39,897 nucleotides of DNA from Deltaproteobacteria bacterium GWA2_54_12 (GTDB lineage Bacteria > Desulfobacterota > GWC2-55-46). This document shows, in pieces, positions 36,300 to 38,268 of the stretch. Under the pieces are notes generated by a model. That model did not search any database. It worked only from the letters and a program-made list of their open reading frames with translations, and was not told the DNA's origin. Both the position numbers and the translations under genes were made by a program. How positions within the stretch are numbered: the stretch's first letter is position 1; each line of letters opens with the position of its first letter. The stretch is taken from the NCBI GenBank assembly GCA_001795535.1, contig MGPK01000034.1, positions 40,586 through 80,482 of the forward strand. Reading direction: 5' to 3'.

Positions 36300-36420
36300 G
36301 TAACAGGGCGGAGCTCGCTATGTGAGGAAGGGCGAATCTCGCCGAGGCTGCGGGAGCGAAGCGACCTCAGGGGCGCCCTTCGCGGATTGGGGAGGCAGAA
36401 TGCGAGTAGAGCCCTGTTAC
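36300..36420. repeat. 121-bp nested inverted repeat, possible structured RNA
   Basis: gtaacagggc (36300-36309) pairs with gccctgttac (36411-36420). After a symmetric 4/4 internal loop, ctcgc (36314-36318) pairs with gcgag (36402-36406). Further in, gaagggcg (36327-36334) pairs with cgcccttc (36374-36381), and gagg/cctc close an inner loop. A 12-base piece gaggaagggcga (36324-36335) recurs inverted at 36196-36207, tying this structure to the previous one. It lies about 100 bases before a bidirectional terminator. Whether it is transcribed is unknown. Confidence 0.6.
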
Positions 36421-36513
36421 AAAGAGCGGCGACAGCCGCGTTACATGGTTTTTTGGTAAACGATCTTGCTTGCACCAAAAACAGTTTTCTTCTCCGCGCT
36501 CACAATGACGAAA

Positions 36514-36549
36514 TAAAAAAAGCCCCCGGAACTTCCGGGGGCTTTTTTT
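36514..36549. terminator. Bidirectional rho-independent terminator
   Basis: agcccccgg (36521-36529), loop aactt, ccgggggct (36535-36543), with seven A before and seven T after. It can stop + strand transcripts from the left and the minus-strand operon from the right; the stop codon of the minus-strand gene is 20-odd bases away. Confidence 0.92.
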
Positions 36550-36567
36550 GTTGTTATGCCGGGTGGC

Positions 36568-37395
36568 TTACTTGCCAGTCTTTACCGCGTCTTCGAGCTT
36601 CTTCCATTCTTTCTTCGGAATGTCGAAAAGCGCTTTCAGTTCTTTTTTCTGGGTTTCGAAAAGGGACGCCACCTTCACTCCCTTTGGCGTCTTTTCCTTT
36701 GCCTTGCAGTTCTTCTTGAGCGGCAGGTCCGCGAAAAGCTTTCCCCTGTGCCAGGTCACGGGATAGGTCCTGCATATCGTCGGGACTATCTTCTTCGGAA
36801 GCTGCTCTTTTATCCACAGGTAAAAGAGCGAGCAGCCCTTCGAGCCTTTCAAATGGAAGCAGCACAGCTTGTCGCTCTTCCTGACGGCGGTTTCCCTGTA
36901 CGCTCCTCCGATGTAGTCCTCGTCCTGCTTGAGCGGGGTCTTGAAGCAGTCCTCAACCTTCGCGCCGGTCAATGCCTCGACCTTGTCCCTGTGCTTGGTT
37001 ATGAGCTTTATCGTGGCGAAGTCGATGTCGCAGCCCCAGCCGCAGCACTCGTCCTGGCACTGGCTGCCGTAGCAGCCCTCGTCGAACAGGCCTTTGTGGG
37101 AAGCTATGTTCAGGTCTACGATCTTGATGGGTATTCTGGTGATATTCTTTGTCTTTACAACCTTTGCCGCTTTTACAGTCTTGGCTTTGGTTGCCTTTGC
37201 TTTTACAGCCTTCTTTGCCTTGACTGTTTTTGTTTTGACGGTTTTCTTTGCTTCGACTGTCTTCTTGGCCTTTACTGTGTTCTTTGCTTTTACAGTGCTC
37301 TTTGCTTTTGCAGTCTTTTTGGTGCTCTTGGCTGCATCGCCAGTTTTCTTCATCTTCGGTACGGCCTCCGGCAGTGAGATTGTTTTATTGGACAT
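36568..37395 (-). CDS. Cys-cluster (YkgJ/DUF3109-like) protein with histone-H1-like Lys-rich N-terminus
   Basis: 275 residues from ATG 37395. ATG 37353 (residue 15) has a ggagg 11 bases before it and may be the true start, whereas aagga abuts the first ATG with no spacing. Residues about 16-85 are almost only Lys, Ala, Thr and Val in repeats such as KAKKTVEAKKTVKTK, like histone H1 or AlgP tails. From about 100 on the protein is globular with many cysteines: GCYGSQCQDECCGWGCDID, then LCCFHLKGSKGCSLF and PTICRTYP. The last two match the C-x-F/H-L...C-S-L/I-F/Y...C-R-x-F/Y-P pattern of YkgJ-type metal or FeS cluster proteins. Second gene of a minus-strand operon, 33 bases after the BON gene. 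Function unknown. Confidence 0.85.
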   Translation of the reverse strand: MSNKTISLPEAVPKMKKTGDAAKSTKKTAKAKSTVKAKNTVKAKKTVEAKKTVKTKTVKAKKAVKAKATKAKTVKAAKVVKTKNITRIPIKIVDLNIASHKGLFDEGCYGSQCQDECCGWGCDIDFATIKLITKHRDKVEALTGAKVEDCFKTPLKQDEDYIGGAYRETAVRKSDKLCCFHLKGSKGCSLFYLWIKEQLPKKIVPTICRTYPVTWHRGKLFADLPLKKNCKAKEKTPKGVKVASLFETQKKELKALFDIPKKEWKKLEDAVKTGK

Positions 37396-37428: not shown

Positions 37429-38106
37429 TCAGGGGAGCTTGTGCACGCTGGTCTCGTCTACTAGGATGTTGTTAACGACATTGTTCACGCCCCAGGTGAA
37501 CCATGCGTCGTCTTCGGCGGCTTCGCGCTCGGCAACGCTTCCGGTAATGCCTTCGAGGGTTACGACATAGCCGTTAGTGTAAACCCTCAGGCTCTGCGCG
37601 TCGACCAGCATGTCTTTTTCGAGCGCGAGTTTTATCGCGTCGCTCAGCTCGCCGTCGGAATCCGCTTCAGGCGGGTTGACCTCTATCGAATTTATGACAT
37701 CCAGGGCCCCGGGTATCCACCACGCGAGCACGCCCGCGAGCCTCTTGTGGCTCAAGGACCAGACCTGGCCCTCGAGGTCGACTACGCCGTCCCTGACCTC
37801 GATGTTTATATCGAGGCCGTTTAACGCGCTTTCCTGGGTGAGGGCGCCGAGCATGTGGTCCCTTATCTCGTCGTCAGACATCTTGACGGACGGGCGCACC
37901 CTCAACCTGTCAACCACGCCAGCGACATCCTGAATGCCCATCGCCAGAAGCAGCGATTTTTTTTTGAGGGCGACATTCTCCACCATGCCTTCCATGACGA
38001 TGGAGCCGTCCTCCATCTTGAGAGCGATGGGGAAGTTGTTCGGGTCGAATTTGAGCTCTTCGGTCAGCATGGCCCGTAAGGCCTTTACGGCTGGTTGTGA
38101 GGTCAT
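37429..38106 (-). CDS. Protein with three BON domains
   Basis: 225 residues from ATG 38106, taken over an earlier in-frame ATG (38196) because a gggga sits 5 bases before it and the longer form would begin upstream of the promoter. Three BON units can be read: about 8-75 (ALKMEDGSIVMEGMVEN.. G-I-Q-D-V-A-G-V-V-D-R-L-R-V), about 82-145 (INIEVRDGVVDLEGQVWS..ALDVINSIEV) and about 155-225 (LRVYTNGYVVTLEGITGS..VNNVVNNILV). BON domains bind phospholipid or other ligands and are usually periplasmic (OsmY). This protein has no visible signal peptide, which suggests a cytoplasmic place. First gene of the minus-strand operon, with its own promoter. Confidence 0.9.
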   Translation of the reverse strand: MTSQPAVKALRAMLTEELKFDPNNFPIALKMEDGSIVMEGMVENVALKKKSLLLAMGIQDVAGVVDRLRVRPSVKMSDDEIRDHMLGALTQESALNGLDINIEVRDGVVDLEGQVWSLSHKRLAGVLAWWIPGALDVINSIEVNPPEADSDGELSDAIKLALEKDMLVDAQSLRVYTNGYVVTLEGITGSVAEREAAEDDAWFTWGVNNVVNNILVDETSVHKLP

Positions 38107-38148
38107 TCGGTCCCCGTTCGCGGGCGTTAAAGGATTAAACTGATTTTG

Positions 38149-38177
38149 AGTATAGCAGAGCATTTTCTGTTTAACAA
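38149..38177 (-). promoter_or_regulatory. Sigma-70 promoter of the BON gene operon
   Basis: On the minus strand: TTGTTA (38177-38172), 17-base spacer, TATACT (38154-38149). It lies about 45 bases before ATG 38106. It rules out the longer BON frame that starts at 38196. Confidence 0.75.
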
Positions 38178-38268
38178 GGGCGTTTTTGGACCGCACGGGC
38201 GCGGCTGTTATCGCGTCGAATCAACGCGTTAAAGCCCTCTTTCCGCATGGAAAATCCTGATTTTGCCC

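Follow-up and report, generated by a model that had tools for sequence, protein, structure and literature searches.

Flagellin lysine-N-methylase, FliB (NF038110), carries a CX4CX3CC motif; a four-alanine mutant of this motif is reported to lose both the [4Fe-4S] cluster and the methylation activity, and eight highly conserved cysteines are described for the enzyme (PMC8598068). The YkgJ or CxxCxxCC proteins (PF03692) share an eight-cysteine order, in which a four-cysteine cluster of the form CX2CX2CC is followed by four further cysteines, and together with DUF3109 (PF11307) and FliB they make up the YkgJ/DUF3109/FliB superfamily. As for lysine-rich tails, AlgP possesses a histone H1-like tail of 154 residues, which is described as DNA-binding and as needed for the spacing of polyphosphate granules (PMC9239181). 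Herein we analyzed a stretch of 39,897 nucleotides (the window) from Deltaproteobacteria bacterium GWA2_54_12, and focused on a gene whose product joins a YkgJ/FliB-type core to an H1-like tail. Each part is of a known kind; a search by title of the YkgJ/PF03692, DUF3109 and BON-domain literature found no fusion of such a tail with a cysteine cluster.

The gene and its putative ribosome-binding sequence were located as follows.

36568..37353, minus strand: lysine-tailed cysteine-cluster gene (261 aa), with codon 15 of the longer open frame taken as the likeliest start (ATG)
37365..37369, minus strand: likely Shine-Dalgarno sequence GGAGG, conserved in the members of the genus

The open frame at 36568-37395 on the minus strand codes for 275 aa, and its first ATG is directly preceded by AAGGA with zero spacing. 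For the codon-15 ATG (37353), GGAGG lies 11 bases upstream, an arrangement kept in all four genus members examined, the one in the window included, and several relatives with short leaders, e.g., L012 and L006, carry GGAGG at that distance from their own ATG. In one member of the genus (L002), no in-frame ATG, GTG or TTG occurs ahead of the codon-15 ATG, and the DNA corresponding to the first ATG lies in a different reading frame. Since GGAGG is kept in four of four members and L002 has no usable earlier start, the comparison strongly suggested codon 15 as the start site; that is, translation probably begins 14 codons downstream of the first ATG, before the tail is reached, yielding a protein of 261 aa with the tail most likely starting right at its N-terminus. 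Between codon 15 and the core, no in-frame ATG, GTG or TTG was present, so that only a non-standard start would leave the tail untranslated. This observation, along with the coding-like evolution of the tail DNA shown below, contradicted the possibility, raised in the preliminary description of the locus, that translation really starts after the tail.

Behind the tail, the protein consists of a cysteine-cluster core with the following elements, residues being numbered in the 275-aa frame.

36571..37143, minus strand: globular cysteine-cluster core, covered by the 29-member alignment, with blocks mostly above pLDDT 90 in the full-length model
37042..37074, minus strand: CX4CX3CC motif (C108, C113, C117 and C118), with the spacing of the FliB [4Fe-4S] motif
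36706..36864, minus strand: remaining conserved superfamily cysteines (C178, C188, C208 and C230), in the order seen in eight-cysteine YkgJ proteins

The core alignment of 29 sequences revealed ten invariant cysteines, plus GG, TWHRG and other conserved polar positions; the first gap of the CX4CX3CC motif was one residue longer in three of the 29 relatives (L014, L015 and L022). The whole 275-aa frame contains 11 cysteines, fewer than the 12 or more counted previously. A relative from another part of the phylum (L069), 33% identical, retained eight cysteines, the number reported for FliB (PMC8598068), and these were ordered like the eight invariant cysteines of an alignment of ten YkgJ proteins. 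The core was modeled by AlphaFold with a mean pLDDT of 83.7.

Comparison with the models of known families placed the core at the margin of the superfamily. The Pfam models of the YkgJ/DUF3109 superfamily gave no match with the window protein itself, while the FliB model matched it with E-values of 0.002 for the whole protein and 0.00054 for the core alone. Among the 29 relatives, the FliB model was matched by 27 (best 5.1e-6), DUF3109 by 17 (best 9.3e-7), and CxxCxxCC (PF03692) by two (best 0.0018). A profile-profile comparison of the core with YkgJ using hhalign gave a weak match (probability 32%, E 4.8e-4, 70 columns). As to FliB, C17, C22, C26 and C27 of its motif correspond to C108, C113, C117 and C118 of the window protein; in contrast, the core, of approximately 190 aa, covers only positions 9-101 of the 373 in NF038110, leaving some 270 positions missing, scores 19.6 bits against the equivalog cut-off of 85, and showed no link to flagellin. 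The similarity to DUF3109 is near full-length in L023 (profile positions 7-169 of 181), but no member was seen above the gathering cut-off of 33.5 bits, the best score seen being 26.4 bits in L023. With YkgJ, the core shares the eight-cysteine order, i.e., the four-cysteine cluster with its CC pair followed by C, C, C and C, and the ending C-F...C...CR.(Y/W)P...C. It differs from YkgJ in having CX4CX3CC in place of CX2CX2CC as the first cluster, in the extra invariant C39 and C67 and the TWHRG motif, and in lying below the Pfam gathering cut-off, and a whole-genome search of the window's genome found no PF03692 match.

Structural searches were silent as to the fold: neither phmmer run on the full-length frame nor a profile search detected a credible relative of solved structure, and Foldseek and VIA-align with two models found nothing above noise among solved folds (best VIA Z 2.5, to KH domains). 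BFVD yielded a single 192-residue match (E 5.6e-3, TM 0.47), and a search of phage proteins with L023 found nothing. The sequence comparisons place the core in the eight-cysteine YkgJ/DUF3109/FliB superfamily as a distant member, which agrees with the assignment to YkgJ/DUF3109 type made at the outset. By analogy with the FliB motif spacing, it probably holds one [4Fe-4S] cluster or a metal via CX4CX3CC, and the metal or FeS site proposed earlier is plausible.

The N-terminal tail and the repeat underlying it were mapped to the positions below.

37144..37350, minus strand: Lys/Ala/Thr/Val-rich N-terminal tail of 69 residues, net charge about +25, predicted disordered
37195..37321, minus strand: 18-base tandem repeat coding for much of the tail, 7.3 copies with 73% match (Tandem Repeats Finder)

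The 69 residues from 16 to 84 comprise 27 lysines, 14 alanines, 12 threonines and nine valines, and only two acidic residues, confirming the Lys/Ala/Thr/Val repeats that had been noted ahead of the cysteine domain. Across all 142 open frames of the window that reach 100 codons, the tail is the 69-residue stretch richest in lysine; the second-ranked frame, with 15 Lys, is the tail's own DNA read in another frame, and the next unrelated frame reaches a maximum of 13. If lysine occurred as often as in the remaining long frames, the probability of at least 27 lysines in 69 residues would be approximately 1e-16. No proline, and hence no KPAA repeat, occurs in residues 16-84, and the protein gave no match with the HC2 model (PF07382). 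Compared with the AlgP and HC2 tails, the tail is alike in being long, disordered and Lys/Ala-rich with short repeats of variable number; it is unlike that of AlgP in its N-terminal position, lack of proline, K/A/T/V-rich composition, length (about 70 versus 154 residues) and unrelated core. In the full-length AlphaFold model, the tail showed pLDDT values of about 45-54 and no secondary structure.

The tail DNA bears the marks of a coding sequence of recent growth. Alanine was encoded by GCA in nine of 14 cases in the tail versus two of 11 in the rest of the protein, which fits recent expansion. All indels in the tail between species were in frame. The dN/dS values over six species pairs were 0.12-0.25 for the tail versus 0.04-0.11 for the core, the tail values being rough since dS approaches saturation and the repeats are difficult to align. 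A search with the tail found no second copy in the window's own genome.

To trace the tail across relatives, 33 sequences were surveyed, comprising 32 of the order and L069. The long N-tail was present in only four of them, all members of the genus, at 54, 54, 67 and 70 residues, in accordance with the predicted proneness of the repeats to length change; its net charge remained at +21 to +25 in all four despite the changing length and sequence. In a tree of the cores, from which tails were excluded, the four genus members were nested in a clade with leaders of 14-19 residues, and the adjacent pair had leaders of 13-14; the leaders of the sister genera (13-19 residues) are basic. Long basic C-tails were found in G004 and G005, which are sisters, and in G047, whereas G011, G018, G015, G022 and others had a basic tail at neither end, and thus the core does not need the tail. 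By parsimony on the tree, the long N-tail requires a single change, long C-tails require two, and long tails at either end three. Charges of the N- and C-tails showed no trade-off (Spearman 0.06, p 0.76, n=31). The 108-residue C-tail of the G005 protein (L025) has an internal Met (MATKK...), and in that genome the tail may derive from a once separate, small H1-like gene that became joined to the end of the core. As read from these sequences, the long N-tail would represent recent growth within the genus by repeat expansion. The other objection envisaged in the preliminary description, that orthologues lack the tail, held in part: 29 of the 33 are without the long N-tail, and three of those 29 bear a long basic tail at the other end.

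Tails of a similar kind were encountered on other proteins of the lineage. With the HC2 model, matches at E ≤ 0.01 turned up in 12 of the 48 genomes of the order, one of them above the cut-off and some being noise in wrong frames. The convincing ones included ribosomal protein L17, an S4/pseudouridine synthase, several small H1-like proteins, a protein of TatA type and a YggS-like protein (Ala_racemase_N). In the window's genome, L17 (L139, contig C6) has a Lys/Ala-rich C-tail of about 70 residues, and such a tail was seen in L17 of all five other genomes examined (L137, L138 and L140-L142); it carries acidic residues too, being less purely basic than that of the cysteine-cluster protein. The S4/pseudouridine synthase of G036 (L136) has a Lys/Ser/Thr-rich N-tail of about 90 residues. 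The tail thus looks like a generic polyanion anchor used across the lineage and not a special sensor, and, because other tails sit on L17 and a pseudouridine synthase, RNA or the ribosome appears no less likely than DNA to be its target.

The gene itself was present in 33 of 48 genomes of the order, these being all the genomes returned for it, and a search of the phylum matched ten of 395 genomes, only one of which (L069) lies outside the order. Two elements flank it.

37429..38196, minus strand: BON-domain gene, probable operon partner, upstream (Pfam BON 3.1e-31, three stretches)
36512..36552, both strands: terminator-like hairpin with a U-run, just past the stop codon (inverted repeat I3)

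In 28 of the 32 intact loci of the order, the BON-domain gene preceded the core gene in the same orientation, and rimP, ppi and cca were nearby in most of them with the gene order kept, the pattern of a core that is vertically inherited beside the BON-domain gene. Apparent distances of more than about 700 bases between the two genes probably reflect early stops encountered in some loci, and the gap lengths were left out of account. The hairpin had a folding energy of -30.7 kcal/mol (z -5.95, minus strand) and was not among the entries of a consensus terminator scan; Rfam at gathering gave no match over the whole window. Three peculiarities were also recorded. In G027 (L072, contig C7), the gene is interrupted by a stop codon or frameshift roughly 70 codons in, and the adjoining ppi also matches in two frames, perhaps reflecting a sequencing error. 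A contig labeled Methylophilaceae (CAJPFK010000002.1, L031), which is probably mis-binned, carries a copy of this deltaproteobacterial gene nearly identical to L036. Window positions 36300-36420 harbor a MITE-like dispersed repeat, about 120-136 bases long, whose 19-base terminal inverted repeats are imperfect. It was matched 12 times in the window's genome, 41 times in G001, 22 times in G003 and twice in G002; one G001 copy lies just downstream of the orthologue.

On balance, we lean toward a superfamily cysteine-cluster protein whose slippage-lengthened disordered tail serves as a low-specificity polyanion anchor. The protein would probably be cytosolic, and its core, holding one [4Fe-4S] cluster or a metal through CX4CX3CC, would perform an old, vertically inherited job beside the BON-domain protein. 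A short basic ancestral leader would have been lengthened by slippage of the 18-base repeat into the disordered tail of 54-70 residues in the genus, and this tail would keep the core near RNA, ribosomes or the nucleoid. The same growth might have been near-neutral, slippage having lengthened a dispensable leader that is tolerated and has no binding role, with the core working as in its tail-less relatives. The absence of the long N-tail from 29 of 33 sequences, the complete lack of a basic tail in several, and the imperfect, length-variable repeat are consistent with this alternative, but the net charge held at +21 to +25 in all four genus members, the nonsynonymous rate well below the synonymous one (0.12-0.25) and the repeated origin of long basic tails, which arose three or more times among these proteins and at either terminus, render it rather unlikely. 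The redox- or metal-sensing nucleoid protein of the preliminary description, in which the cluster state would alter the hold of the tail on DNA, was not favored. Its basic, H1-like composition, a motif that by analogy with FliB likely binds an oxygen-sensitive cluster, and the DNA binding described for AlgP (PMC9239181) would suit such a sensor. Sensing cannot, however, depend on the tail family-wide when tail-less orthologues are common, kindred tails occur on L17 in the window's own genome and on the pseudouridine synthase of a relative, and the Pfam and structure searches of the window protein found no regulator or DNA-binding fold, all of which make the sensor improbable.

Two readings would assign the core an activity on lysines. 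By motif spacing and model matches, FliB is the nearest characterized member of the superfamily, and Lys-rich tails exist both in cis and on L17, so that a FliB-like lysine methylase with the tail as its own substrate, or as a lure for tails such as that of L17, is conceivable; the lack of some 270 of the 373 FliB-model positions (19.6 versus 85 bits) and the distribution of HC2 matches make it very doubtful. These matches were not commoner where the core is present, occurring in five of 33 genomes with the core, one of the five being the core's own C-tail, versus seven of 15 without; co-occurrence did not support the tails as the core's substrate. It is highly improbable that the core is a pared-down, FliB-like [4Fe-4S] enzyme modifying the lysine residues of basic tails, both its own in cis and that of L17 in trans; if true, this would constitute a bacterial tail-modifying system resembling histone-tail methylation. 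There is likewise only a slim chance that the tail targets polyphosphate or another granule in the manner of AlgP and PhaF. The reported requirement of the AlgP tail for granule spacing (PMC9239181) is the precedent, against which stand the proline-free tail without KPAA repeats and the absence of any polyphosphate or granule gene noticed adjoining the locus.

The family offers a stepwise case of how a bacterial protein can acquire an H1-like tail through repeat expansion, from leaders of 13-14 residues through 14-19 to 54-70, with relatives having gained tails separately at the other end. It also adds a compact family with the FliB cluster motif to the YkgJ/DUF3109/FliB superfamily. The L17 tail in the window's genome raises the question of whether all these tails may have one common polyanion target.
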